Notes under the pieces: model-generated
The model's database searches: none
Told to the model about the DNA's origin: nothing
The model's input: only the letters and a program-made list of their open reading frames with translations
IMG/VR virus record: IMGVR_UViG_3300025886_000034
Coordinates: 1-52,747 of that record
DNA length: 52,747 nt
Origin: a virus
Strand: one strand, 5' to 3'
Translations under genes and position numbers: made by a program
In this document: positions 1 to 46,746 of the stretch, piece by piece
Layout: every line of letters starts with the position of its first letter
Position numbering within the stretch: position 1 is the first letter of the stretch

Positions 1-1158
1 TTCTTCAAGATTTTTACGCAAATCACTAAATGATAGAGATTCCATGTAGTCTTTTGCTTTCAACTTAACGTCGTGAGACTTAGCAAGTTCTGATGCCGCA
101 AATTGTGACAACCACTTGACTTTTGCTTTGGCGATAGTCATCAACTCATCTTTGCTCATATTAGCAATGAATGCCTTTGCTTTCTTATAAGCGGGCCCCG
201 TAACATCAATTCTCTCGATGCTTCCGTATGCTTTTTTCAGTTGTGCGATTTGTGATGATGACATACCTTCATCCAACAAATTCGCAGCTTCAAGTTCTAT
301 ATTTTCATTTTCCCAAATTTGCACAATTTTGTTCCCCCATTGATCTTTTTTACCTAATTCCCTAACAGCTTTGCGTGGATATTTCTTCACAGCGTCGTCG
401 AAATCATCCACAACCCCCATCCATCTTGAAGCATGTTTCCTGTTCTTGTACGGTTTAACTAAATGTGGTCTTACTATTTTACCGCCCAAAGGTTTAGAAC
501 TGTCCGGATTTAGATTTGCTTGATAATCCCCAAGTGCACTCACGGCTTCCTTTACGACAGAGTTCATTGTCACTGCCATGTCACCCTGCGCCATTGTAAC
601 TTTGCCCTGTCTGTTATAGAGATATGATGCTTGTGCAACTGGATTGGCAACGTTTTTTAGCGCAATCTTTTCGAGATTGTACTTTGCTGATTTGCTCTTG
701 GACTTGACAACGTATGTGTTTTCGTTGCCTTTCTTGATAGAAGAATCAAAGTTAATCTTAATCTTGTCACCTTTCTTCAATGACTTGAACATTTCGTCAG
801 AAATAGGCAGTTTCATTTCAGTAATCTCGGTTTCTTCTGGAACACAGTTGGGCACTTCTTTACCATTCTTTTTCTTCATCCCAACCTGTTTATAACCATC
901 CCAGCAGGGATCGTCTTTACGCTTGTCATCTTTCTTTTTCTTGGCTTCTTCAATTTTCATAGCACCCTCTATTGTCCAAACTGCTTTGCTGGTTCCTTCA
1001 GTAGATTTATCCACATTTACTTTCTTACCCAAAAACTTTAAAAGTTCTATGACTTTCTTCAGGTTTCCTTTTTCAATATGCTGAGACGCAATATGTTTTG
1101 TTGCTGGTTTAACGTCTCGTTGTCTTATTCTCAACGATTCTTTAATATCATCTTTCAT
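1..1158 (-). CDS. Conserved phage protein with CWxGY Cys motif, C terminus outside the window
   Basis: The frame is open from an ATG at 1158 to the window edge, so at least 386 residues are present and the C terminus is missing. The start overlaps the stop of the upstream gene (TAATG), which suggests translational coupling. The first 60 residues are basic and helical. Near residues 82-107 is a compact motif, PCWDGYKQVGMKKKNGKEVP followed by NC, with two cysteines; I associate this with structural or prohead-linked proteins of marine T4-like phages, from memory only. The rest is Lys-rich and mostly helical, with no catalytic motif I recognise. It lies at the end of a late run of predicted head-packaged proteins, so a role inside the virion is plausible. 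The function is unknown. Confidence 0.75.
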   Translation of the reverse strand, partial: MKDDIKESLRIRQRDVKPATKHIASQHIEKGNLKKVIELLKFLGKKVNVDKSTEGTSKAVWTIEGAMKIEEAKKKKDDKRKDDPCWDGYKQVGMKKKNGKEVPNCVPEETEITEMKLPISDEMFKSLKKGDKIKINFDSSIKKGNENTYVVKSKSKSAKYNLEKIALKNVANPVAQASYLYNRQGKVTMAQGDMAVTMNSVVKEAVSALGDYQANLNPDSSKPLGGKIVRPHLVKPYKNRKHASRWMGVVDDFDDAVKKYPRKAVRELGKKDQWGNKIVQIWENENIELEAANLLDEGMSSSQIAQLKKAYGSIERIDVTGPAYKKAKAFIANMSKDELMTIAKAKVKWLSQFAASELAKSHDVKLKAKDYMESLSFSDLRKNLEE

Positions 1159-1442
1159 TACAATATTTCCGGTAAGTGTGTCATTAATGATGATATAACA
1201 CCAGCACCAACCAACCACATAATCTTGGTCATTACTGCCATACGTTCTCGCAGAGAGATAACAATCCCATCGATATCATCCATTTTACCCGACATTCTAT
1301 TAAGTCGTTCGTGCCCTTCGGCGCGTCTCACCTCAAGGTCTGTAATTTTTTCTTCTACTCTTGCTAATGCTACAATAGCATCCGACATTTTATCCAACTT
1401 GTCTTCAATCCGTTGAAGCCTATCGTCTGTATGCTGGTCCAT
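1158..1442 (-). CDS. Small coiled-coil protein with C-terminal membrane anchor (XhlA-like architecture)
   Basis: 94 residues. Residues 1-70 are charged heptad-like helix (DDRLQRIEDKLDKMSDAI and onward), typical of a coiled coil. Residues about 70-92 form a hydrophobic segment (IMWLVGAGVISSLMTHL) that looks like one membrane span at the C terminus. Coiled coil plus tail anchor is the architecture of XhlA-type phage lysis proteins and of some small membrane-attached phage proteins, but no specific family signature is visible. It is tightly coupled to its neighbours (13 bases after the previous gene, TAATG overlap with the next). A holin accessory or membrane-tether role is inference. Confidence 0.7.
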   Translation of the reverse strand: MDQHTDDRLQRIEDKLDKMSDAIVALARVEEKITDLEVRRAEGHERLNRMSGKMDDIDGIVISLRERMAVMTKIMWLVGAGVISSLMTHLPEIL

Positions 1443-1455
1443 TTACATCTACCTC

Positions 1456-1806
1456 TTAGTTATCTACTTTAGCACTAGCGCGCCATTGGTAACAAGACCA
1501 ATAATTTGCTTTCCATTTAGGGCCAGGATTGTCGCAACCGTGTCTTGCCCTGAATGATTTTCTCCTTTCGGGATCATCCCGTTTAATTTCCATATTCGGA
1601 TCGCCAAAAGTAACTTTTACAACATTACCCTTGTCGTTCTTTACATACACACCAAACTTTTTGTTCGAACCAGAGGGCAACCTAAAAGGATTATTTAGTT
1701 CTACCTTCTTACCCTGATACTCAGATTCGGTTATAACTAATTCTTCTTGTACAGATTCGCACTGACAATCAATCATCTCTTCTAGGTGTTGCCTAAATGT
1801 TTTCAT
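1456..1806 (-). CDS. Capsid-targeting-tagged protein with conserved Cys/Trp domain (FGDPNM...FRARH)
   Basis: 116 residues. The N terminus MKTFRQHLEE resembles the T4 capsid targeting sequence of internal proteins (MKTYQEFIAE), including a Glu after LxE where the gp21 protease would cut. The rest is one compact domain, residues about 27-110, with the motif FGDPNMEIKRDDPERRKSFR followed by ARHGCDNPGPKWKANYWSC. I have met this domain in marine phage head-associated proteins but cannot name its function. Four cysteines lie in or near the tag and the domain, so metal binding or disulfides are possible. It sits three bases from the Arg-rich gene. Inference: it is packaged in the head and processed by gp21. 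Confidence 0.75.
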   Translation of the reverse strand: MKTFRQHLEEMIDCQCESVQEELVITESEYQGKKVELNNPFRLPSGSNKKFGVYVKNDKGNVVKVTFGDPNMEIKRDDPERRKSFRARHGCDNPGPKWKANYWSCYQWRASAKVDN

Positions 1807-1808
1807 CG

Positions 1809-2897
1809 TTATTCCTTATCAAATATGCCAGAAAATTCATCATCGATCTCTTCATGAATCTTCTTAATTCTTTGTGTGTTGATATCATTCAACGCATTTA
1901 AAACAGAATCCATATCATACTTCATAGTGGCAATATCGGGGTTTTGCCCAGGCGTAGCTCTAGCATAAGCGATAAAAGCATCGTCGGTACCATACTCTAA
2001 AACTTTTTCTTGCAAATCTTCATCCACACTACCATCCGCGATAAAACTATTCACACGAGCAAATCCGAGTTGTTGTGGAGTTTTAAATCGCTGATTTTCG
2101 TATGAATCTAATCCACGGTTATACACTTCCAATACAATATCAAATGGCATATTAGCCCGTTCGGCTTTCTTTACCAAACTAGAATATTCCTCAAAAAATC
2201 CATCAAGTTCTTCGATCTCTTCTTCCGAGAACGACTCCTTACCAGCGCGCAACATAGCAGAAATCATTTCAGACTCGGAATATTCCTCTTCGTCGTCATC
2301 CTCATCATCCTCATCATCTTCTTCTTCGGTGTAGTATTCGAGATAGTCTCTAACCGTAGAAATATAGTCTGACGCTAAAGTGATTTTAGAAAGAATCCAC
2401 TCATCAGGCTCTTCATCCATATCAGACATAATTTCAAGGATTGATAACGCATCTTCCGAGATTTCGTACAGTTGAGCTTCTGCCATCCGTAACCCATCGG
2501 TATTTGGATCATCGTAATCTTCTACAAACAAAGAACCAAAATCCAAATCCAAATCTTCTGATTTAGTTCCTCTTTTTCTTTCGATTTCTTTTCTTCGGAA
2601 TTGTGGAGTTAAACGTGCGGCAACCCGACTGACGAATTTCTTCATCTTTTCTGTGCGTCTATCCACAGTCATTTTCTGTGCGGGTGACAACTTTCCGTAG
2701 GATTTTCCGCCAGCATAACGCTTCTTGAGCATCATTCTTGCTCCGCGTCTGGCTCTTTTAGAAATGCGCGCTCGGTCTGCAAATCGTCGCATAACCAACT
2801 GGCGTTGTCTTTTAATTCTAGTTTTTCTTCTGCGCAACTGCATTCCGCGTTTTCGGCGCTGCTGCATAGACAGAACTTCTGTTTGCATATCTTCCAT
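1809..2897 (-). CDS. Arg/Lys-rich internal head protein candidate with acidic tract
   Basis: 362 residues with an extreme charge pattern. Residues 10-110 are very basic (RRKRGMQLRRRKTRIKRQRQ and similar), suited to binding or condensing DNA. Residues 130-190 form a helical domain containing MAEAQLYEISEDALSILEIM. Residues about 190-210 are a run of Asp/Glu, and the C-terminal 150 residues are helical and acidic. LxE sites such as QLYE would suit gp21 cleavage. The ATG at 2897 has no good Shine-Dalgarno; a start three codons later is possible. A late-type box (CATAAATA) lies 63 bases upstream. It sits among capsid-targeted genes, so an internal or prohead core protein is the best guess. I do not recognise a T4 orthologue. 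Confidence 0.75.
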   Translation of the reverse strand: MEDMQTEVLSMQQRRKRGMQLRRRKTRIKRQRQLVMRRFADRARISKRARRGARMMLKKRYAGGKSYGKLSPAQKMTVDRRTEKMKKFVSRVAARLTPQFRRKEIERKRGTKSEDLDLDFGSLFVEDYDDPNTDGLRMAEAQLYEISEDALSILEIMSDMDEEPDEWILSKITLASDYISTVRDYLEYYTEEEDDEDDEDDDEEEYSESEMISAMLRAGKESFSEEEIEELDGFFEEYSSLVKKAERANMPFDIVLEVYNRGLDSYENQRFKTPQQLGFARVNSFIADGSVDEDLQEKVLEYGTDDAFIAYARATPGQNPDIATMKYDMDSVLNALNDINTQRIKKIHEEIDDEFSGIFDKE

Positions 2898-2959
2898 TGG
2901 AGTTTACCTTAGTCTTATCCCACCGCAGGTTTGCCTTAGCCTTACTGCAGTTATATGTG

Positions 2960-2967
2960 TATTTATG
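2960..2967 (-). promoter_or_regulatory. Possible T4-type late promoter
   Basis: The minus strand reads CATAAATA, one base from the T4 late consensus TATAAATA, upstream of the Arg-rich protein gene and just before the stop of the previous gene. The mismatch at the first base lowers confidence. Confidence 0.4.
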
Positions 2968-2968
2968 A

Positions 2969-3583
2969 TTATTTAACTTTTGACATTCCCATTCCAGCCC
3001 TCAAGTCGTCGAACAACTTTTTGGTGTCTGTGGCAGACATGCTGACAGAAACACCTTTCTTAAATGTGTCAAAGTCACCCTTAGAGACATTCGCTCTTTG
3101 CTTAGAAGCAGACATTCCCTCAACCCCTTCTGCGTCAGGGTCTCTATCCCCCGCAGATACAACATTGATCTGTTTAAAGTCATAAAATCCGTGGCGGGCC
3201 TTTACACCATTATACTTATTTAACAGTGTTTCAAATTCAGATATTCTATCAGCACCAACAACCATCGTGACTTTATCAAATCCTTTGGCATGTAGTGAAC
3301 CGGCAATATCAAAAACGTTTTTGACTTTCTTATCCAGAATAATATTTTTAGAGTGTTTTGGGAACATCTTACGAACGTGCTTGATTTTCTGATCGTATGT
3401 CAGAGGATTTTTCTTAGGATCCTGCGAATGTGACAGATATACAAAAAACGGATTTCTGCCCGCTTTTCTGGCAAGCACGTCAACAAGTTTACCGTGTCCA
3501 ACGGTGGGTGGGTTCATTCTTCCAAATGTAAAGAATGCTTCCTTACCTTGTTGCTCATTAATAAACTGTTTGAACGAGTACAT
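2969..3583 (-). CDS. NMNAT/cytidylyltransferase-like nucleotidyltransferase with capsid-targeting-like N terminus
   Basis: 204 residues. The N terminus MYSFKQFINE resembles the T4 capsid targeting sequence and ends at an IxE site. The enzyme follows immediately: residues 21-30 read GRMNPPTVGH, the GxFxPxxxGH ATP-binding motif of the HIGH nucleotidyltransferase superfamily; residues about 106-113 (VTMVVGAD) match the conserved VGxD strand; residues 157-163 (MSASKQR) match the SxSxxR phosphate-binding motif near the end of the fold. Members join an AMP or CMP group to a phosphorylated partner (NMN, FMN, phosphopantetheine, glycerol phosphate). The substrate cannot be read. It starts right after the stop of the ligase-like gene, under the same late promoter. 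Inference: it is packaged in the head and delivered with the DNA. Confidence 0.8.
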   Translation of the reverse strand: MYSFKQFINEQQGKEAFFTFGRMNPPTVGHGKLVDVLARKAGRNPFFVYLSHSQDPKKNPLTYDQKIKHVRKMFPKHSKNIILDKKVKNVFDIAGSLHAKGFDKVTMVVGADRISEFETLLNKYNGVKARHGFYDFKQINVVSAGDRDPDAEGVEGMSASKQRANVSKGDFDTFKKGVSVSMSATDTKKLFDDLRAGMGMSKVK

Positions 3584-4792
3584 TTACTTTTGCCATCCTT
3601 TTACTATGTCAGGTGAGAAGTTGTTGTATGAAAACTCCATACGGTCAACAAGTTTTACTGCCGATCCGCTAAGTTTATCAACCGCAACAAATCCTTCAGC
3701 ACCAGTTACTTTGTAACCCTTATTAGTTCTAACGAACGTGTCAATAGATTGAAGCTCGTTCAACTTATTTATTAGTCTAAGTTTAGCATCAACAATTAGC
3801 TTCTGCAACTCGAACATTTTTACTAGACTAGATTTATTCTCTTCGGAAAAAAACTCAAGCAACTCATCAAGTTTTGCTTGCTGGGCACTCTTACCCTTTG
3901 CGGTCTTTCTAGCATCAATTTCTTTTTGGTATTTATCTCTAATCCAACCAATCAACTTTTCTGTATGTTCTTTTGTGTCTCCGATAATTGATCCGGCTCT
4001 GACATAGGTGTTGTTGAAGGTTTCGATGTGCTGTGCGAGATGTTGGTTCGCCTCCAGTGTTCGTAATGTCGTTCCACTGATTGAGTTAAAAAGTACTCCA
4101 ATTTTTGATAAAATTGCGTTAACATCTGAAGTCTCCTTCTTTGTCATAGTTGCTTTCGTAACATCAGTCAAAATCGCATCTTGTGACCATACAGCTAAGG
4201 ATTTTCTAAACTGCGAAACATTCACACCATATGTCGCTCGCATCGACATAAAGTCTTTTCCTGTATATGTGGTGTGCCACACAATCCCTATCTTAGCAGC
4301 ACGAACTGCACTAGCTTGTTCTATAGGAACTGCATAAACAATTGTGTTGGGGTGGAAGGTTGCATACTTTTCACCAGCGATAGTTTTGACTTTTACATCG
4401 CCAGGACCAAACAAAAAATCTCCCTGAACGACACCTTTGATGCCAAGTTTAGGGAGATGCTTTAAAGCTTCTTTCAGTTTAGCGGCAAGATCACCAGAAG
4501 TATCTGCGTCAATATCAGCCGGAGTTTTATACACTTTAGGATTTTTATTGAATATACCCTTCTTAGCAACAAAGAATTTCTTGTCACTAGGATCTATACC
4601 AGCAAAAATAGCAGGGGCCCCGTCCCATTTGACCGAGACGGATCCGCCGTGCCCCGACAGCATATTCCGCATATCACGCAGAGCAAAGATTGCTTCTCGG
4701 GTACCATTTACACCACCGTAGAGAACCTTGTCCTCAATGTGGGTCATGTGAGTGTTCTTCTGTTCCGACAAAAAATTTGAAAAAGTTTTCAT
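3584..4792 (-). CDS. DNA/RNA ligase-like nucleotidyltransferase with capsid-targeting N terminus
   Basis: 402 residues. The N terminus MKTFSNFLSE closely follows the T4 capsid targeting pattern with an LxE cut site. Residues 55-58 (KWDG, followed by AP) match motif I of covalent nucleotidyltransferases, Lys55 being the candidate AMP-accepting residue. Residues 122-126 (VQGDF) could be the motif III strand. Residues 366-369 (EGFV) and 380-383 (KLVD) look like motifs IV and V, although they are closer together and further toward the C terminus than in standard ligases, with a helical insertion at about 190-340. The superfamily includes ATP-dependent DNA and RNA ligases and capping enzymes; the substrate here is unknown. 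A perfect late box lies 24 bases upstream, consistent with a virion protein. Confidence 0.75.
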   Translation of the reverse strand: MKTFSNFLSEQKNTHMTHIEDKVLYGGVNGTREAIFALRDMRNMLSGHGGSVSVKWDGAPAIFAGIDPSDKKFFVAKKGIFNKNPKVYKTPADIDADTSGDLAAKLKEALKHLPKLGIKGVVQGDFLFGPGDVKVKTIAGEKYATFHPNTIVYAVPIEQASAVRAAKIGIVWHTTYTGKDFMSMRATYGVNVSQFRKSLAVWSQDAILTDVTKATMTKKETSDVNAILSKIGVLFNSISGTTLRTLEANQHLAQHIETFNNTYVRAGSIIGDTKEHTEKLIGWIRDKYQKEIDARKTAKGKSAQQAKLDELLEFFSEENKSSLVKMFELQKLIVDAKLRLINKLNELQSIDTFVRTNKGYKVTGAEGFVAVDKLSGSAVKLVDRMEFSYNNFSPDIVKGWQK

Positions 4793-4815
4793 TTATTTTC
4801 CTAAACTACAACCCT

Positions 4816-4823
4816 TATTTATA
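4816..4823 (-). promoter_or_regulatory. T4-type late promoter for the left-end packaged-protein genes
   Basis: The minus strand reads TATAAATA, an exact T4 late -10 box, between the end of gp41 and the start of the ligase-like gene. It separates an early replication gene from late packaged-protein genes. Confidence 0.75.
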
Positions 4824-4824
4824 A

Positions 4825-6234
4825 TTAGGAAAACTTCAGTTGCGACCAATCCCTTTCTTGAGTCGCTCGTGTACCAAAATCAGAACGATCGAATATAGGT
4901 TTATCGTCATTCACATGACCACTATCAACAATGTCGTTTTGTGCCGATTGCTCAACATCATACAGTCTCATTTTGGATTTATCAACACCAATAACAAACC
5001 TCTTATATGTATCAGGGCTATTATACCTGTTTTTCAACTGCTTGACCATAATCTGATTTAGGTCTGTCAACTCTTCGGTTGCGATTAATGCTACCATAAA
5101 GTCTGCGGTTGCAGGAAGACCAAATGATTCGCTGGTATCAGTCAAATCCACATCCGAGTTCGCAAAACCACCACGAGTAGTTTGTGTTGCGGATACAATA
5201 GGAACATCATATTCGACAGCCATTCCTCGTAATTCCTCTGCAATACTCTTAATCAAGGTGTAAGAGTTAACAGTAGCACTTGCTCTCATTCTAGAAGATG
5301 AGCATATATTGAGATAATCAATATAAATGATATCAGGCTTGAATTGTTTCTTAAGTTTTACATCATTGATCAAATGTTTAAAATGAGAAACATTTGCCGA
5401 TGCTGTTGGATACTCTTTGACAATCAGTTTACCCTTAGTCTTGCTCTTGATTTTCGATATTTTATTCATGTACTCATCTTTAGATAACTGGTGAAGATAG
5501 TCTAAAGGTGTGTTCATCAAGTTGGCATCAATTCGTTCCGCAATCTTTTCCTCACTCATTTCCAGAGTTATATACAAAACATTTTTACCCTGCGTCAGAT
5601 TTGCCGCTGCAAAGTGACACATAGCAAGTGACTTACCAACGCCAGTGCCAGCAAGAATGATATTCAGAGTTTTGTTGGGCAATCCATTCTTCGTGATTCG
5701 ATTCATATAATCCAAATCAAAAGGAATGCTAGACTCAACTCTATGGTAAAACTCGTATCGCTCTTCAGCATCAGCAATAAAATCGTGCCCGACGTGATTG
5801 TCAAAAGACACAGATAAAGCATCTGCTAGAATCTGAGGAATAGCACCCTTGTCTAATGCTTTCGTATCATCATCAAGAATCTGAATAGATTCCATAATAG
5901 CATTGTATACAGCTTTTTCTTGACAGAACTGCTCTGAGTTTTCTATCAGCCATTCGGTATCTTTTTCTGATACATCATTGTACGCCAGTTCGTCAACATA
6001 ATCAACAACTTTTTTGTGCTGCTCTTGGTTGAGATTTGATATAGAATCAACCTCAATCTTAAGGGCATCAACAGTTGGTGAAGATTTATACTTCAGGATA
6101 TAATCAACAATCTGTTTATAGACTGTCTTCTCGGTTATATCCTGAAAGTAATCTTCCTTGATGAAAGGAATTGTCTTGCGTACAAATTCATCATCATACA
6201 GCAGGTGTTTCAGTATTTTCTTTTCTAAGTTCAT
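4825..6234 (-). CDS. 41: Replicative DNA helicase, T4 gp41 type (DnaB family)
   Basis: 469 residues, close to T4 gp41 (475). It unwinds the fork 5'-3' and works with a primase. The helical N-terminal domain covers about 1-150. The RecA-like motor has Walker A at 196-202 (GTGVGKS), a Walker B strand ending in YIDYLN, and the ATQTTRGG sensor segment of DnaB-type helicases. It is the last gene of the uvsX operon and overlaps the end of the preceding small gene by 41 bases, suggesting coupling. The terminal SQLKFS is followed at once by a late promoter for other genes. The primase (gp61) is not in this window. Confidence 0.95.
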   Translation of the reverse strand: MNLEKKILKHLLYDDEFVRKTIPFIKEDYFQDITEKTVYKQIVDYILKYKSSPTVDALKIEVDSISNLNQEQHKKVVDYVDELAYNDVSEKDTEWLIENSEQFCQEKAVYNAIMESIQILDDDTKALDKGAIPQILADALSVSFDNHVGHDFIADAEERYEFYHRVESSIPFDLDYMNRITKNGLPNKTLNIILAGTGVGKSLAMCHFAAANLTQGKNVLYITLEMSEEKIAERIDANLMNTPLDYLHQLSKDEYMNKISKIKSKTKGKLIVKEYPTASANVSHFKHLINDVKLKKQFKPDIIYIDYLNICSSSRMRASATVNSYTLIKSIAEELRGMAVEYDVPIVSATQTTRGGFANSDVDLTDTSESFGLPATADFMVALIATEELTDLNQIMVKQLKNRYNSPDTYKRFVIGVDKSKMRLYDVEQSAQNDIVDSGHVNDDKPIFDRSDFGTRATQERDWSQLKFS

Positions 6235-6547
6235 TTGTGTATCTCACTTCCGCTTTATCGACTGTTGCCATTAATATAGAGTTTAGCACAGAACTTATAA
6301 CATTTTCAAATGTTTTTTTGTTTTTTTCATCATTTAAGATAAAATCCTTTTCTTCAGTGTGAATATTATATTCGAACGATACATGCAACTCATCGGCGTC
6401 ATTGACATCAGGATCTAAGCTCACAACACCGTATGAATATTCAACTCCGGAAAATTCACCAGTAATTATCTTGACTTTTGCCAAATCTTTATTTTCTTCG
6501 TATCCTTCTTCTGGATCAATTAAAAGATAATCTTTATTCTCCTGCAT
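6194..6547 (-). CDS. Small conserved protein between UvsX and gp41
   Basis: 117 residues from the ATG at 6547, chosen because GGAG lies 7 bases upstream and longer versions run far into uvsX. The protein is acidic, with a predicted beta-rich middle ([20 protein letters not shown]) and a helical C terminus. No catalytic motif or membrane span is seen. It overlaps uvsX by 14 bases and gp41 by 41 bases, so it is translationally embedded between a recombinase and a helicase. A role at the replication fork or in recombination is suggested by position only; the family is unrecognised. Confidence 0.7.
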
Positions 6548-7598
6548 CTTCAGTCTCCAGCACCTCGTCAAACTCTGCACCTTCACTACCGTATAAGAAC
6601 TCCTTCTTACATACATCATCAATCATAGCAAGGATTTCTGGTGTGTAATATTTTTCCGGATTCGAATTGATAGACTTACCAAAGACCTTAGTGCCATCGG
6701 GAAACTCATACCGAGTAGAAACTTTGGTGAAGATTCCATACTTCTCAGCAATTTCAAGCAGCCCATAGTATCGATCCAAACCATGCTCGTAGGTTATCTT
6801 GATTTCAACTTGAGCATTCTCTTTGGTCAAACGAGACTTCTGCATCTTTGCTTTGACGATATTACCAACAACCGTGGTGCCATCTTTTTCTTTCTTCTTG
6901 GTCAGCATCACGATTGTGGATGCGGTGTACTTCAACCCAGAACCACCGGACATTGCTTTCATAGGAACATATGATCCCACAACATCATATACGTGATTCG
7001 TTACCATAAGAGGAACACCGATCTTTGCTAGCTTCAGATTGAGAACGCGAAAGGTGGCTTTGAGGATTTGTGCTTTAGTCATATCCTTAGTCTCTTTACC
7101 TTCCATCGTATCTTCCATTTCCTTGGTAGACGATAGTTGCCCGAGAGAATCGAGGATCATAATCATCGGTTCGCGCTTTTTTTCTGGTTGCGCAGAATAG
7201 TTTTCAATGATCTTTAGTGCGGTGTGTCGGAACTTCTGAATCGTATCAGGCTCAGAAATAATAACTCGGGTAGTATCAATACCTCGGTCTTCCATCATAC
7301 CTTTCGTGACAGCCGCTTCGGTGTCGAAGTAGATTACCCCACCTGTCGGATTAGAATCTAAAAATTGTTTTACGATTCCTAAGACAAAGAATGTCTTACC
7401 GGTTGCAGATTCACCAGCGAATGCGGTGACTTTATTGTTGGGAACACCACCATAGATGCTACCCGAGAGAACAGCATTAAGTGCGTAACTCCCCGTATCA
7501 ATACAACCTGTATACTCGGCAGAAGCACCGCCTTCAGATAGTATTTTTGTGTCTTCGTCTTTGAGTGTTTCCACTAGACTGTTAAAAAATTTACTCAT
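6534..7598 (-). CDS. uvsX: UvsX RecA-like recombinase
   Basis: 354 residues from the ATG at 7598, preceded by GGAG seven bases upstream; the protein then begins [10 protein letters not shown]. UvsX forms filaments on single-stranded DNA and drives strand invasion for recombination-dependent replication. Walker A is at 62-69 (GESATGKT), the Walker B strand contains [11 protein letters not shown], and the L2-like region includes [14 protein letters not shown]. Its loader UvsY and helicase UvsW are at 28-30 kb in the same window. A strong sigma-70-like promoter lies 27-55 bases upstream, and its -35 box is buried in the terminator of the upstream DUF262 gene. Confidence 0.95.
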
Positions 7599-7624
7599 AA
7601 TATAACTCCGTTCAAAGTGTACAT

Positions 7625-7653
7625 AGTATAACACAAAAAGTAAAAAAAAGCAA
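7625..7653 (-). promoter_or_regulatory. Sigma-70-like promoter of uvsX
   Basis: On the minus strand TTGCTT (7648-7653), a 17-base spacer, then TATACT (7625-7630). The -35 box overlaps the stem and T-tract of the terminator at 7642-7675. It drives uvsX, the small gene and gp41. Confidence 0.7.
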
Positions 7654-7675
7654 GAGCGAACCCTTGCTTTTTTTT
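7642..7675 (-). terminator. Rho-independent terminator after the DUF262-HNH gene
   Basis: The minus strand has GCAAG and CTTGC arms flanking an 8-base loop, extended by A/T pairs, then a run of T. It begins three bases after the DUF262 stop codon. The A/T tracts on both sides could allow it to act in both directions. Confidence 0.8.
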
Positions 7676-7677
7676 GA

Positions 7678-9150
7678 TTAGGCTGCTTGTTTAGCAGCCA
7701 TTCTTTCTACAATATCTCGACATAAGTGATTGGGATATTCCTCCCCATACTTCATTAAGAATTCGTCGAGGTTCATGCGTCCCATCTTTCGGTTTACTTC
7801 CTTAGTGATGACGATTAAGTTATCATCGCCATTGTCTCCACCATTTGCGTGTGAGATGATGTGACCACCTTCGATGTCTTTCATAAAGACTGGTGCACCT
7901 TCGATTGCACATCGTTTACCTTGCTGTTCAAATCGATTTAAGATTTGAACTTCACTAAAGCATCGGACACGCTTTCCTACGACTCCAGAAATTTCACCAT
8001 CAACTGTTATCGCATTTAGGAAAATTCCAATCTTAGCAAAGATTTGATCTTTCAAGTGCAGACCTAACATACCGCTCCAAGTTACCAGTAACCTACTTTT
8101 TTGCCTTCCCTCATACGTGGTTTCTTGGTCAAGAAACATTGAGTACATTGTCGGCACGTAAGTATCAGCAAAGGCTTTGAAATCTACAATTTCTAACTTC
8201 ATTGCCTTTAAGTAAAGCAAAAATTCAAAAGCAAACAGAATCTTAGGTCCGCTAGAAAAAGATTTCTTAGCCATTTTCTCGTCGGAAGCTGAATTGACAA
8301 TTTTAAGCATTTGATCCAAAATTTCCTTCAGAGTTTTGTATGTTTTTTTACACTCAGACAAATCTGTCCTTCCAGGCGTAGATTCATACTGTTCATCTAA
8401 CAGAACTCTATCAATTTCTGTTGCTAAAAACCATTCGCTTAAGTTTTCGTTATACAGGATAGATGCTGCAGCAAGTTTTGCTACCAATTCTTCAGCCTGT
8501 CTACGATCATTCCGCAGTTTAAAGACTTCAAAGAAAGGGTGCAGGGAAGTTCCCAACTCGTCAAAAGGAGTATCCGGATTGACTATTGATCGAACCATAG
8601 AAGTGTAAAATCCTTTTATACCATTTCGTTTTTCTTGGTCCTTTAAATCGTTCCCATCGTTTAGCTCAACAAACTTATCTGCTGCTTCTATGTCCGTCAT
8701 TGCGGAGTTGTATATTGAAGTCGCAATTACAGAATCATAAAACGCTTGCTTATCAGCATCTGTCAAGTGTTCCCACTTTAATGAAATTTTTCTGTAGGTT
8801 TCGGAATTCCCCATAGGCACATACACCCCATCCGCACCTTTAGGTGTGGTCAAAGAGATTTTTCCATTGATATAAAGAAAAATACTTTGCAGCCTCTGAA
8901 GTCCATCAAGGACTTCATATGTTCCATCACCAAGGTCTCTTAAGTGTAGTGTGTTAACACCTTTACGATTCCAGATTGAAATTACAATTTTCTTACTCCA
9001 CTTTGGGCGTGCAACAAAATTCCGCTGGTACTCCGGACTCAATATAATTTTTCCAGCAAACATCATATCGAGAAGCCATTTTACAGTTTTTTCAATATTT
9101 TCTACAGGTACGGCCACGTGTGTGTAACTTGTTAAAGCTTTTTTGTTCAT
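7678..9150 (-). CDS. DUF262 (GmrSD-like) protein with C-terminal HNH nuclease domain
   Basis: 490 residues. The N terminus carries the DUF262/ParB-like signature: [10 protein letters not shown] at 37-46 and [10 protein letters not shown] at 80-89 (usual form DGQQR), the nucleotide-using half of GmrSD-type modification-dependent restriction enzymes. The middle is helical. The C terminus, about 410-470, has an HNH-like segment, [20 protein letters not shown] followed by an Asn-rich helix, with His/Asn metal and catalytic candidates. Such proteins cut foreign or modified DNA, so a phage copy could attack competing phages or host mobile elements. It has its own promoter, a 90-base leader with inverted repeats, and its own terminator, as expected for an inserted accessory (moron) gene. 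Activity is unproven; the HNH core lacks the paired Cys of some families. Confidence 0.8.
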
Positions 9151-30741: not shown

Positions 30742-32094
30742 TTACATAAGATTGACAATCTTGAACTTGCGGTAGTAAGCATTAGTACCGGAAGTGATTG
30801 TTCCATCAGATACATCCGCAGCACCCTGCACAGATCGTGAGAAAGGATTAGCGACCATGCCGTAGCGAGTCTTGAATCCGATCTTTGGTTGGAAGCTATC
30901 TTGACCAACCGCACGTACCATCTGGAGAGGAACGTAAGGGCAGTAGAATACACCAGAATCGTATGATGAAGAACCTTTGTATCCCATAGTTGCATAGTGG
31001 CTACCAGCAGATCCTTGGAAGTATGGATCGATGTAAACTTTTACGCGACCATTCAATACACCAGCGAACGTGCTACCAGTGTCATCAACCTGAAGGCTGT
31101 TAGACAAAGCAGGAGTGTAATCCAGAACACCAGCCATCTGAAGTGCAGAAGCAACGTCAGAAGAACAGATGAGGATGTTACCCTTACCACGACGAGTATC
31201 TTTAGCGATTTGGTTTGCTTCACGCTCTAATTGGAACATCAAACCCTTGAACTTCTCTACTGACCAACGGCCATTAGCGTCAACATCAAGGTCAAATGTG
31301 CCTGGAGTAGCAGTATCAGCAGCACCAAGCTTGGCACCAAAGTTAACTGTACGAACAACTTCGCGGTTGATTTCAGCAAGAATTTCCGTTGACAGAATGT
31401 TAGCAAGTTCTGACTCGGCGTCCAAACCATGAACAGCTTTAAGATCTTGTGCTAATTCCATCGTGTATTCTGCTTTCAGAGCGCGGCTCTTAGCAACAAC
31501 ACTAACTTTCTCGATAGAGAATGCCATTTCAGCGAACTGATTACCAGCCGCGTCACCGAGTGCTTCGGATTGTGCTGTAGTCATACCACCAGCGCTAGTG
31601 TACCCAGCAGCTGCAAACGGGTCTGTTGTTGTGCTTGTTGCTACAACACCGCCTGGCGCGTCCTGAGCTGCGTTCTGGCCAGAGAAGTTTGTATCAGATT
31701 CGTCATAAAAAGATTCATCACCAGTTTGGCTTGTGTACCTTGCGCTCATTGCGAAAATCAAACCAGTAGGACCTGACATAGGCTGAACACCAGCAATATC
31801 ATAAGCAATTAAGTTTGGCATAGCGCGACGAATCAGTGAAATCATTACTGGATCGACAAAATTGATGTTACCAGAATCACCCCCAGCAGCTGCAGAAGCA
31901 CCCATAGCATTAGTTGGTGCTTCTAACAGTGAAGTTTGCTCACTGTACCCACCAGACTGACTTTCGCGGATGGCTTGCTCTTGGTTTTCGAGCATTTGAG
32001 CAATAGTAGCTCGCTTGTGAGAGTCCGTAATCTTTGGCAAATCTGCATGCTCAAGAATAGGGGCCCATTTTTTTTGTAAAATATCTGTTGACAT
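30742..32094 (-). CDS. 23: Major capsid protein gp23
   Basis: 450 residues (T4: 521). It forms the hexamers of the head. The start MSTDILQKKWAPILEHADLP and the later FSIEKVSVVAKSRALKAEYT and ELAQDLKAVHGLDAESEL are core gp23 sequences. The prohead protease site is visible as SLLE/A after Glu58 (T4 cuts after Glu65), so the propeptide would be 58 residues. AAAGGAG precedes the ATG, and a perfect late box is 37 bases upstream. A stable terminator follows, as suits a very highly expressed gene. Confidence 0.97.
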   Translation of the reverse strand: MSTDILQKKWAPILEHADLPKITDSHKRATIAQMLENQEQAIRESQSGGYSEQTSLLEAPTNAMGASAAAGGDSGNINFVDPVMISLIRRAMPNLIAYDIAGVQPMSGPTGLIFAMSARYTSQTGDESFYDESDTNFSGQNAAQDAPGGVVATSTTTDPFAAAGYTSAGGMTTAQSEALGDAAGNQFAEMAFSIEKVSVVAKSRALKAEYTMELAQDLKAVHGLDAESELANILSTEILAEINREVVRTVNFGAKLGAADTATPGTFDLDVDANGRWSVEKFKGLMFQLEREANQIAKDTRRGKGNILICSSDVASALQMAGVLDYTPALSNSLQVDDTGSTFAGVLNGRVKVYIDPYFQGSAGSHYATMGYKGSSSYDSGVFYCPYVPLQMVRAVGQDSFQPKIGFKTRYGMVANPFSRSVQGAADVSDGTITSGTNAYYRKFKIVNLM

Positions 32095-33020: not shown

Positions 33021-33671
33021 TTATAGCCGACGAAGAAAGTTTTCAAAAATCTTTAACTTTGCTTCTCGGAGCTGTTTTGTGGATGCTTTCTTAATAATTT
33101 TTTTAGACTCTTCTATTTGTTTTTCCATCCAATGACCATCAACGCAAATCCACTCTCTGTTTTCCATAATACCTCGTACAAAGGCGTCTGGCGCAGAAGG
33201 ATCTGCTACGATATCTGCTGCTGTTGCGAGATGGAAGTCATCGCAAACAACCTTGTAACCCTCTTTAGTGTCTTCGAGAGTTCCCATTCCGCGAGTAGAT
33301 ACACCAAACTGCGCACCCTCACCGATTAAATTCTTAACAATGTTTCCGTATGGAGTATCTAAAAGTTTTGCTTTCCCGTAGAAATTGGAGCCTTCTGCAC
33401 GAAGATCTTTGATAAGATGACTAACGCGCTCTAAGTTAATTGTTGGTCCTTCGGGGTGTCCGAGTTCACCAAAAGCGCGACCTTTTTTTACGTATTCTTC
33501 GTTATACCTTTCAGTCTCTTTATTTAAAACACTAAAAGGGTACATGCGCCCATTCCGATTTGCAATGTCGGCTTGCATAAAGATACCTTCAATGAACATA
33601 TCCTTTTTACCATCTTCTCTTTCTTCTGTTACGAAACTAACTGTTTCGTTAAGTTCAGTTATGAGTCTCAT
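33021..33671 (-). CDS. 21: Prohead maturation protease gp21
   Basis: 216 residues (T4: 212). It cuts head proteins after LxE/IxE sites once the prohead is assembled. The catalytic His72 is in AFGELGHPEGPTIN and Ser125 in QFGVSTRGMG, the herpes-type assemblin arrangement. Its likely substrates in this window are gp23, gp22, gp67, gp68 and the MKTF-tagged proteins at the left end and at 33.7-34.1 kb. Its ATG overlaps the stop of the preceding 47-codon gene. Confidence 0.95.
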   Translation of the reverse strand: MRLITELNETVSFVTEEREDGKKDMFIEGIFMQADIANRNGRMYPFSVLNKETERYNEEYVKKGRAFGELGHPEGPTINLERVSHLIKDLRAEGSNFYGKAKLLDTPYGNIVKNLIGEGAQFGVSTRGMGTLEDTKEGYKVVCDDFHLATAADIVADPSAPDAFVRGIMENREWICVDGHWMEKQIEESKKIIKKASTKQLREAKLKIFENFLRRL

Positions 33672-33814
33672 TGTTGTGCCCCTTTATGTTTCGTATAACC
33701 TTTCTTAATCTCCTTTTTTTTGTCTTTTTGCACCGAAGATTTATTATATTTATATGCATGCTTCGCTACAAAATTTGGAGATTTTTGTTCTAAAAACTGT
33801 TTAAAGGATTTCAT
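33668..33814 (-). CDS. Tiny basic protein with capsid-targeting-like start
   Basis: 48 residues from the ATG at 33814. It begins MKSFKQFLEQ, close to the T4 capsid targeting sequence, and the rest is Lys-rich (KDKKKEIKKGYTKHKG), which would suit DNA charge neutralisation inside the head. The stop overlaps the gp21 start (ATGA). In T4 the prohead core genes 67 and 68 sit in this position. The exact orthology is unclear. Confidence 0.65.
   Translation of the reverse strand: MKSFKQFLEQKSPNFVAKHAYKYNKSSVQKDKKKEIKKGYTKHKGAQQ
33747..33754 (-). promoter_or_regulatory. Possible late promoter of gp21
   Basis: Exact TATAAATA on the minus strand but inside the tiny basic gene, 76 bases before the gp21 ATG. 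It could be fortuitous in A/T-rich codons. Confidence 0.35.
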
Positions 33815-33883: not shown

Positions 33884-34090
33884 TTACTCTTCAAATTTAG
33901 ACAGAGCAAACATTACGAGTTTCTCTGTATCAGTATCTAAGCGTTCTCTAAACTTATCTTTGTTCTCTTCGTTAATGCTGTTATATAGAGCAACAAGTGC
34001 TTGTTGACCGCGCTCATCATCTACCATAGAAGCAATCTCTTCTTCTATGGTAGGTTGTTCAGATGTAACGAATTCTAAAAAAGTTTTCAT
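33884..34090 (-). CDS. Small prohead core protein with capsid-targeting-like start (gp68 position)
   Basis: 68 residues. It begins MKTFLEFVTSEQPTIEEEIA, resembling the T4 capsid targeting sequence, then forms an acidic helical protein. Position directly after gp67 and before gp21 corresponds to T4 gp68, although it is half the length (T4: 141) and sequence similarity is not clear. It follows gp67 without a gap (stop and start abut). Confidence 0.65.
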   Translation of the reverse strand: MKTFLEFVTSEQPTIEEEIASMVDDERGQQALVALYNSINEENKDKFRERLDTDTEKLVMFALSKFEE

Positions 34091-45134: not shown

Positions 45135-46746
45135 TGCTACCCTCTTCTACCAAACTATCGAAAAACTTTGACATAGATTTAGCTAACTCGCTTTGATCTT
45201 CAGTCTCTTTCGGTATAAATTCGAACGTCTCATTCGAAATTTTTGGTTGAGGTTTTTCATCTTCTATCCTTTCTTCGTATTCTTCGTCGCTACCTTCTTT
45301 ATCAATTTCTTTACCAATCTCTTTAATGTCTTCTTCGGACATTTTCAAAATATTTTTCTTGATGTAATCGTGAGAGAAATATTTACCAACATACTGATCC
45401 ATATCGTTCAGCATAGATATTCTTTCTCGAATTATTTCAGTTTCTTTTAACTCAATAAAATGCGAATCCGAAATGAAATCATAATTGATATTTTCTTTTA
45501 ATTCCAACCACTCTTTCTTAGTGCATACACCTTTCAATAACAATTGAGTTTCCAGCAATCGGTCAAACAAGTGCGAGAAACGCATTCTCAATCGACCAAC
45601 GAACTTGCTGAATTTTACTTCATCCCGTGTGATTTCCGAAGCACGCCCTAAAGAAAAACCGGTATCGGCCTCCAAACGTGATGCCGGTACATTCAGCGAT
45701 TTATAAAGTTTTTTCTGAAAGTATAATACGTCATCAATCTCGCCGAGGTTCTGTCCGCCAGGCAATGTAGTAATCTCCGTACCTCTACCACCTTCTCTAC
45801 GAGGCAACCAGAAGTCTTCTAACATGGTTTGATAACGACGATCATCCCTAACCTCACCTGTGTTAGCGTCATACACCAACTTGTTCTTATACTTCTGCAT
45901 CACGTCGCGCAAGTATTGTTCAGCCTTCATCTTGGGAAGATTACCAACATCGATATAAAAAATTCGACGTTCTGGTGCGCGAGAAATCCTATAGATAACT
46001 GTCGCATCCTCAAGCATCCTTAATTGGTTCAAAGGCTTGATTGCTTTGCTCAAATGTGACAGAATATCTTTTCCATTATGGTCAAGAATTCCAGAATGCA
46101 CATAGCACACCGAGTCAGGTGAAATCTTCAATCCATTGTTAGCGTCTTTTTGGAAGCCTTTTTCGGAATAGATAAAATACTCTATAGGTTTTGTATATAA
46201 AGTGTCATTTACGTTATTAGTTTTTTTATCCTTCGGGGTTTCTCTAACCTTACGGATTTTCCGAGGGTCAATATAACGAATCTCTTTCACACCTTTCTTT
46301 GGTGATTTTTCGTCGATGACCATATGGTAGTATAGTTTTCCGTCTACATACCATCTACGAAAAATATCATATGCTTGATTATTGAAATCTAAAAGTTTCA
46401 TTGTGTGATGAAACTCTTCTCTAATTTTATTTTTGAATGCTTCTGATTGTTCTAGTTTATCGAGTATAATTTGCACTGGGTAGTCATCCTCAGAATAAAT
46501 AATAGACTCATTAACAATATCATCTATTGCAGCATCACATTCTGGTTGCGATGACATTTCTCGATACTTACCAATTAAGCTGCTACCGGATTTGGCGGTT
46601 CCTTCAAGATCGACATATGTACCATACACACCGTTACCAGAAATGGTTATTGCGGCGTCATCGTCGGTTGGAGGAACAAAAGATTTTAGTGCTGCTGATT
46701 CAACATCATCCTTTCCAATTTTATATCCAAATAATGTAAATGCCAT
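45115..46746 (-). CDS. 20: Portal protein gp20
   Basis: 543 residues (T4: 524). It forms the dodecameric ring at the head vertex through which DNA is packaged. Typical parts are DAAIDDIVNESIIYSEDDYP, the clip/stem region with YIDPRKIRKVRE, FWLPRREGGRGTEITTLPGG and NVPASRLEADTGFSLGRASE. The end is acidic and disordered. An exact late box is 33 bases upstream. Confidence 0.97.
   Translation of the reverse strand: MAFTLFGYKIGKDDVESAALKSFVPPTDDDAAITISGNGVYGTYVDLEGTAKSGSSLIGKYREMSSQPECDAAIDDIVNESIIYSEDDYPVQIILDKLEQSEAFKNKIREEFHHTMKLLDFNNQAYDIFRRWYVDGKLYYHMVIDEKSPKKGVKEIRYIDPRKIRKVRETPKDKKTNNVNDTLYTKPIEYFIYSEKGFQKDANNGLKISPDSVCYVHSGILDHNGKDILSHLSKAIKPLNQLRMLEDATVIYRISRAPERRIFYIDVGNLPKMKAEQYLRDVMQKYKNKLVYDANTGEVRDDRRYQTMLEDFWLPRREGGRGTEITTLPGGQNLGEIDDVLYFQKKLYKSLNVPASRLEADTGFSLGRASEITRDEVKFSKFVGRLRMRFSHLFDRLLETQLLLKGVCTKKEWLELKENINYDFISDSHFIELKETEIIRERISMLNDMDQYVGKYFSHDYIKKNILKMSEEDIKEIGKEIDKEGSDEEYEERIEDEKPQPKISNETFEFIPKETEDQSELAKSMSKFFDSLVEEGSNDKEEK

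Follow-up and report, generated by a model that had tools for sequence, protein, structure and literature searches.

T4-type capsid-targeting tags point to enzymes, including a ligase-like DUF6267 protein, as probable virion cargo of a marine T4-like phage

The closest described counterparts of the genes considered here are the small internal proteins IPI, IPII and IPIII of phage T4, which inhibit restriction enzymes. Mutagenesis of IPIII showed that a ten-residue N-terminal tag suffices, positions 4 and 7 governing targeting to the capsid and positions 8 and 10 processing, and the cleavage motif of the prohead protease gp21 is L/I-X-E (PMC9026906). The same review proposes that T4-like phages can package a variety of proteins by means of the tag. 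The T4 Alt ADP-ribosyltransferase is an example of an enzyme that is carried in the head and injected. In cyanophages, other groups detected cytidyltransferases in purified particles of S-SM1, S-SCSM1, S-CREM2 and S-SZBM1, the S-SM1 enzyme belonging to group T4-GC190 (PMC3037559). Here we analyze IMG/VR virus record IMGVR_UViG_3300025886_000034, 52,747 bases of a T4-like marine phage (hereafter the window, meaning this whole stretch), in which three proteins encoded behind the DnaB helicase gene start with tags of the T4 kind. Two of them are a DUF6267 protein and a cytidyltransferase-like enzyme, both putative nucleotidyltransferases. Sequence comparison and analogy with relatives make it probable that the tagged cassette is late-transcribed virion cargo of the T4 internal-protein type, enzymes included. 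The features that carry this proposal are listed below.

4816 to 4823, minus strand: late promoter box TATAAATA, 24-31 nt upstream of the DUF6267 ATG
3584 to 4792, minus strand: DUF6267 protein, 402 amino acids (aa), RNA/DNA-ligase-like, N terminus MKTFSNFLSE (PF19782, E 8e-105)
4763 to 4792, minus strand: codons 1-10 of the DUF6267 gene, predicted capsid-targeting sequence, cut expected after Glu10
2969 to 3583, minus strand: cytidyltransferase-like enzyme, 204 aa, tag MYSFKQFINE (PF01467, 33.4 bits with a cut-off of 21; phrog_3041, E 1.4e-59)
3554 to 3583, minus strand: codons 1-10 of the cytidyltransferase gene, predicted capsid-targeting sequence
1456 to 1806, minus strand: 116-aa protein, tag MKTFRQHLEE (phrog_7595, E 2.9e-13; tag profile 12.6 bits)
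1777 to 1806, minus strand: codons 1-10 of the 116-aa protein gene, predicted capsid-targeting sequence
1809 to 2897, minus strand: Arg-rich protein, 362 aa, untagged in the window
33021 to 33671, minus strand: gp21 prohead protease, Peptidase_S77, expected tag cutter (PF03420, E 5e-40, match 33162-33623)

All three tags agree with T4 at the key positions, having Phe at 4, Phe, Phe and His at 7, Leu, Ile and Leu at 8, and Glu at 10; only His7 of the 116-aa protein deviates from T4 Phe7. The assignment to the T4 type, made in an earlier note on this DNA, is thus borne out at the four positions mapped in IPIII. That note had also described the three genes as adjacent: the N termini are present as stated, but the untagged Arg-rich gene (2897-1809) separates the cytidyltransferase from the 116-aa gene. 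The Arg-rich protein that the note counted in the set does exist, but an in-frame stop 6 nt upstream of its gene leaves no room for a tag. In some related loci, however, open reading frames (ORFs) matching parts of the Arg-rich protein are tagged, 40 of 116 reaching 6 bits. For the 116-aa protein, a profile trained on DUF6267 tags gives 6 bits or more in 11 of 42 homologues. Several of the latter homologues, e.g., L024:7102-7449, carry Asp at tag position 10 (MKKF..HRAD). In T4, Asp10 permits targeting and inhibits cutting (PMC9026906), and by analogy these homologues may therefore stay tagged. As in T4, the window combines a ten-residue N-terminal tag (F/Y at 4, F at 7 apart from the one His, I/L at 8, E at 10), unrelated proteins behind that one tag and a gp21 gene, the presence of which, claimed in the earlier note, is confirmed. 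In contrast to the small T4 proteins, the window cargo includes enzymes, nucleotidyltransferases of 200-400 aa, placed after the DnaB helicase.

Taken by itself, the window is suggestive only. A loose tag pattern gives three matches at gene starts vs. about 1 expected, and three among 281 internal Met; a stricter pattern gives three vs. 0.33 expected. As the loose pattern is barely above internal Met, single-window statistics were set aside in favor of relatives. In nine pooled genomes and records including the window, the loose pattern occurs in 43 of 2584 start candidates vs. 29 of 7058 internal Met (p 4e-9). The main tag profile was built from 79 IMG/VR tags (loci L003-L082) and run on whole genomes. 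That 79 of the 80 loci fetched with the window DUF6267 score at least 6 bits with the DUF6267-tag profile is circular. A profile trained on DUF6267 tags alone recovers 63 of 76 cytidyltransferases, and one trained on cytidyltransferase tags alone recovers 60 of 80 DUF6267 proteins, with pass rates of sampled internal Met of 0.00025 and 0.00325 for the two cross-trained profiles. Control genes of the same loci are untagged (coiled-coil neighbor 0/42, DnaB 0/6). With both enzyme families left out, M..F..[FYH] followed by [IL]xE is found at 65 of 144 N termini vs. 1 of 28 internal positions, the loci being related and not independent. In S-SM1-type loci the tag sits on the cytidyltransferase in 80 of the 80 kept (the best 80 of 126). 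Two further profile matches in the window (8.6 and 7.5 bits) fall in ORFs of just 40-41 aa on the opposite strand and were taken as noise. With relatives included, the sequence comparison argues strongly that the tag is more than chance.

The tag is also ordered along genomes and in phylogeny. ORFs scoring at least 6 bits cluster in phage C48C1 (6/6 within 57.3-68.4 kb of 156 kb) and in genome G001 (4/4 within 131.5-135.8 kb of 157 kb); in G002, G003, G004 and Melnitz some also lie outside the cluster. A tree built from the core of 240 DUF6267 sequences, 85 of them tagged and 155 untagged, requires three changes of tag state under parsimony, vs. a mean of 70 and a minimum of 61 in 200 label shuffles; therefore, as judged from this tree, the DUF6267 tag is gained or lost rarely. 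In C48C1, the annotated start of the cytidyltransferase (L086:9688-11031) falls inside an enzyme motif, and an upstream non-ATG start yields a tagged form, VIKNFSQYLLEE.

A search with the N-terminal profile across T4-like genomes, which the earlier note had proposed, places T4 ipIII, ipII and ipI at ranks 3, 4 and 5 of 276 ORFs. The top T4 match (18.6 bits) is gene 61.1, a hypothetical 54-aa protein (NC_000866 18966-19130; L380:267-431, minus strand) that starts MKTFKEFIKEDM and lies beside primase gene 61; by its sequence it is a candidate internal protein. The 240 related loci contain 2471 ORFs, 328 of which score at least 8 bits. Together with ORFs of at least 7 bits from 11 genomes, these form 39 similarity clusters, at least one of which (T4 30907-31881) is probably a false match. 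A Pfam scan covered 20 proteins, namely 18 tagged ones, S-CREM2 ORF12 and the untagged S-CREM2 DUF6267; 14 of the 20 have no family at E 0.01. Among the others are a tagged Zeta-toxin-like P-loop kinase of marine T4-like phages (PF06414, E 5.6e-8 for L015:2429-3301, which clusters with G003 45242-46117 and G004 109392-110264), a tagged RimK-like ATP-grasp enzyme of Melnitz (L357:82-1131; PF08443, E 3e-33) and a tagged S-adenosylmethionine (SAM) lyase of S-CREM2 (PF23780, E 2e-19).

This diversity bears on a different explanation, that the tagged proteins are head-assembly or DNA-condensing parts, as proposed for T4 IPIII, whose enzyme folds serve inside the head. T4 IPIII mutants affect head assembly, the Arg-rich protein of the cassette looks DNA-binding by composition, and two proteins with tag-like starts adjoin gp21:

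33884 to 34090, minus strand: 68-aa protein between the portal region and gp21, tag-like start MKTFLEFVTSE (4.8 bits, weak)
33668 to 33814, minus strand: 48-aa ORF adjoining gp21, tag-like start MKSFKQFLEQ (11.9 bits, without [IL]xE)

Both starts had been pointed out in the earlier note and are present, but neither has a clean [IL]xE ending. The 39 similarity clusters suit exchangeable effectors better than core parts, and the alignments made show no variation in the motif residues of either enzyme, so a purely architectural role appears very unlikely.

Virion proteomes of relatives bear on packaging. In the S-CREM2 particle proteome of 52 proteins (PMC10665884, Table 3), all four ORFs with 8 bits or more are virion-detected (base rate 50/216, p 0.0026), as are 5 of 6 at 7 bits or above and 5 of 7 at 6 bits or above. 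The four are the cytidylyltransferase, an APH/ChoK-like kinase, the SAM hydrolase and ORF13, and the fifth detected match is ORF136; ORF12, a listed virion enzyme with a tag-like stretch about 17 residues in, was not counted. The virion cytidyltransferases are homologous to that of the window, lie in similar cassettes and bear the same kind of tag. That of S-CREM2 starts MKNFSSFLTEA, the S-SCSM1 protein reported as a nicotinamide mononucleotide adenylyltransferase (NMNAT) starts MKSFLQFLKEA, the S-SZBM1 cytidylyltransferase starts MRFRQFIIEA (17.7 bits), and the T4-GC190 protein of S-SM1, MKKFSAFLNEA, is the sole S-SM1 match above 7 bits. A kinase is cited as detected in S-CRM01 virions (PMC10665884); among further tagged genes, the S-CRM01 kinase, which clusters with S-CREM2 ORF14, starts MISFDQFLSE. 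Packaging, which the earlier note had proposed by analogy, is thus supported by like-tagged orthologous cytidyltransferases in the particles of four cyanophages.

In several tagged cyanophage cargo proteins (L233:10257-11420, L356:1174-2403, L314 ORF12 and ORF14, L376 gp128), a further short module, LNLK..G.G.Y.D..G or similar, can be seen by eye behind the tag, which would be consistent with another element common to the cargo. The best annotated DNA match of the window, Melnitz (Methylophilales phage EXVC044M), carries tags on its RimK-like enzyme (MTQKFSQFITEE, 23.4 bits), gp15 (MQGFKTFLSEA, 15.5 bits) and a 131-aa protein (MKNFKNHIAEE, 17.2 bits). Its DUF6267 reads ..INFSKYITE (17.6 bits from an inner start; the annotated start puts the tag three residues further in), and the tags of its cytidyltransferase (MKKFSEIIEARG, 2.2 bits) and Arg-rich protein (5.6 bits) are doubtful.

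The expectation of late transcription rests on the promoter box. The perfect late box reported in the earlier note is found at 4816-4823. The window contains 12 such boxes, all on the minus strand, vs. 3.39 expected and a maximum of 9 in 100 shuffles; ten are followed by a listed gene at a distance of 22-83 nt, one at 165 nt, and one is near none. Nine of the remaining 11 boxes fall at 30.7-50.0 kb, the region with gp21. The other gene names in this region are presumed from gene order.

Relatives of DUF6267 occur in 406 of 50,697 phage records (E 1e-5), the best protein match of the window member being that of phage C48C1 (65.6%). Residues K55, D57, G58, D125, E366, G367, V369 and K380 are invariant in 68 of 68 sequences, and the equivalents K54, D56, G57, D123, E290, G291, V293 and K301 in 54 of 54, short cyanophage forms included. 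We take these residues to be ligase motif I (KxDG), the acidic motif III, motif IV (EGxV) and the motif V Lys; the second motif V Lys that ligases usually have does not appear in these alignments. Glu10, the predicted cut site, is likewise invariant in 68 of 68, including HTVC008M-type proteins with shorter extensions (starts such as MELLNEDKN). The DUF6267 protein of S-PM2, S-CRM01, S-SZBM1 and Syn1 begins close to the predicted cut of the tagged form, and the S-SM1 type has a different, longer N-terminal extension. A model of the short S-SM1-type protein (predicted local distance difference test, pLDDT, 83.5) was compared with known structures by VIA-align. The best 50 of 159 matches (Z of at least 2) are RNA/DNA ligases or a ligation complex, which leaves room for other families beyond these 50. 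Naegleria RNA ligase is the top match (Z 8.2, 172 residues aligned, 3.9 Å), and T4 RNA ligase 1 (Rnl1) gives Z 6.8. DUF6267 resembles Naegleria Rnl and T4 Rnl1 and Rnl2 in KxDG, EGxV and the C-terminal Lys motif, and these are its best structural matches; unlike ATP-dependent RNA ligases it shows no sequence-level match, and the long form has a helical stretch between the motifs.

Two structural results temper this assignment: Z 8.2 is at the edge of the clear range of the tool, and Foldseek gives no match at E of 0.001 or below for either DUF6267 model (best E 0.022 for the short form). We therefore speak of a ligase-like protein and not of a ligase. The AlphaFold model of the long window protein (pLDDT 74, with the helical stretch) was set aside, since it matched helical proteins (BAR, Hsp70) as well as ligases, in no case with E of 0.001 or below. 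A profile search against PDB sequences returned nothing meaningful. In general, the conserved motifs and the modelled fold support the ligase-like reading of the earlier note, and DUF6267 looks like a nucleotidyltransferase of the RNA-ligase type. A DUF6267-cytidyltransferase fusion, suggested by phrog_455, was dropped as a functional argument: Syn1 and S-CAM1 carry two overlapping genes, and S-PM2 is the one instance, among the phages compared, in which the DUF6267 C-terminal part and the cytidyltransferase share one ORF.

The second enzyme has relatives in 528 of the 50,697 phage records (E 1e-5). Its residues G29, H30, S158, S160 and R163 are invariant in 16 of 16 sequences and presumably represent GH and SxSxxR type motifs; by its sequence the protein is a putative cytidylyl/adenylyltransferase. 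The earlier note had called it NMNAT-like, and with its PF01467 match it may be an NMNAT. The point matters for the proposal that injected enzymes rebuild nicotinamide adenine dinucleotide (NAD) against NAD-depleting defences. Besides the PF01467 match, papers that name cyanophage homologues NMNAT speak for it. Nevertheless, no NMNAT equivalog is matched in NCBIfam, the PHROG NMNAT match is weak (E 0.052), and a profile search against PDB sequences gave nothing meaningful (nicotinamide phosphoribosyltransferase was not searched for). NAD rescue is accordingly unlikely. Because of the ligase-like enzyme and the Arg-rich neighbor, end or RNA repair after entry seems likelier.

A number of observations weigh against the cassette being tag-directed cargo. 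Over all 50 matched S-CREM2 virion proteins the tag score does not discriminate significantly (area under the receiver operating characteristic curve 0.55, p 0.13), beside which it should be noted that most S-CREM2 virion proteins are structural and untagged. Untagged cassette proteins are virion-detected too (S-CREM2 gp155, gp156 and gp160; S-SZBM1 139; scores -7 to -12). A virion NMNAT is also reported for S-CBWM1, a phage that shows neither a PF03420 match nor any ORF reaching 6 bits; together these cases indicate that the tag is not necessary for packaging. The cytidyltransferases of Melnitz (2.2 bits), HTVC008M (-2.9) and Syn1 (-12) lack a clear tag. Among the 79 related loci compared, only 11 have an exact late box before DUF6267, where about 2 would be expected. 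The virion data on DUF6267 come from phages with the untagged form. Finally, the S-CREM2 and S-SCSM1 authors state that mass spectrometry cannot separate packaged from co-purifying protein, and the former called the particle enzymes possible cargo or contamination (PMC10665884). Taken further, this last point would mean that the enzymes act late in the infected cell, that their presence in particles reflects abundant contaminants and that the motif has another role, e.g., docking on a cytoplasmic assembly. Contamination is considered in both cyanophage studies, and the detection of several untagged cassette proteins agrees with it. However, S-CREM2 and S-SZBM1 list the tagged cytidyltransferase but not the untagged DUF6267 of the same genome, and the motif, which agrees with the positions mapped in T4, blindly retrieves the internal proteins of that phage. 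We regard contamination as quite improbable.

The absence of untagged DUF6267 from these two virion tables may reflect sensitivity, and the same holds for S-PM2, in whose virion the group of its likewise untagged DUF6267 protein went undetected (as told in PMC3037559). DUF6267, which belongs to group T4-GC71 in S-SM1, is untagged in S-SM1, S-CREM2 and S-SZBM1, in contrast to the window, and the passages of the respective reports drawn on here make no mention of a tag. On balance, the tag predicts packaging, yet it is neither universal nor the sole way in. For the uncultured phage itself, packaging is probable, with good support from relatives. S-CREM2 gp160 and the major capsid protein share, by eye, a stretch GFTGAAAP.GP.AG.DP near their N termini, and S-SM1 197 is similar (proteins at L232:14343-15236, L232:4482-5852 and L233:14806-15354); this stretch is possibly a common shell or protease contact.

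If the cassette is indeed cargo, the following sequence of events can be proposed. The set would be transcribed late, each tagged protein bearing a removable ten-residue capsid-targeting sequence whose residues 4 (Phe) and 7 (Phe/His) would bind it to the prohead core. By analogy with T4, gp21 would cut after Leu/Ile-x-Glu10, and the freed enzyme would be retained with the packaged DNA and enter the next host alongside it. By this analogy the cassette enzymes are probably delivered into the cell with the phage DNA, as is T4 Alt, an unrelated enzyme with a differently starting N terminus. In the clade of the window, two nucleotidyltransferases would be carried, the RNA-ligase-like DUF6267 and the cytidylyl/adenylyltransferase. 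Their most likely, though weakly supported, task after entry would be RNA/DNA end repair or modification in the first minutes of infection. A bolder proposal, which we put forward tentatively, is that marine T4-like phages use a portable ten-residue address code that makes any enzyme injected cargo and is readable from sequence across ocean phages. In the clade of the window, this code would sit on a ligase-like enzyme that the cyanophages examined carry without a tag; instead of acting in the cytoplasm it was made in, the enzyme would be injected and would repair RNA/DNA ends together with the co-packaged cytidyltransferase from the onset of infection.

The likely genes of the window (simple ORF selection) run leftwards, bar four short ORFs at the left edge, and after DnaB the order is DUF6267, cytidyltransferase, Arg-rich protein, 116-aa protein, coiled-coil protein and an open-ended ORF. 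The neighbors outside the tagged set are the following.

6234 to 4825, minus strand: DnaB helicase
1158 to 1442, minus strand: coiled-coil neighbor, untagged (0/42 homologues tagged)
1 to 1158, minus strand: open-ended ORF with a 33-aa motif common with S-CREM2 gp160

The match of the open-ended ORF to the virion-detected gp160 (60.6% over 33 aa) comes from a search of 26 proteins. NCBIfam gives no family for 4 of 5 proteins, with matches below the cut-off only for the cytidyltransferase, and Rfam has no match in positions 1-8000.

The T4 internal proteins and the virion cytidyltransferases were already known. As far as the literature was searched, it is new that the tag is connected with the unexplained enzymes in particles of marine phages, that a tag profile has been tested, that the ligase-like DUF6267 protein is tagged in this clade, and that DUF6267 can be given a likely biochemical class. 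In the literature searched (in addition to the works cited above, PMC9602691, PMC9146016, PMC3012670, PMC12373910, PMC10052503, PMC9964418 and PMC9004378), no paper ties the tag to marine phage cargo or virion cytidyltransferases, and DUF6267 is mentioned nowhere. Cyanophage proteomics, in the reports cited, repeatedly detects metabolic enzymes in particles, and cargo and contamination are undecidable there. The tag supplies a mechanism and a sequence test for virion cargo. The cytidyltransferase, SAM hydrolase and kinase of S-CREM2 agree with it, as does the S-CRM01 kinase. Further cargo that it predicts in marine phages includes the ligase-like DUF6267, the Zeta-toxin-like kinase and the RimK-like ATP-grasp enzyme. 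In addition, DUF6267, a family hitherto without an assigned function, gains a likely biochemical class.

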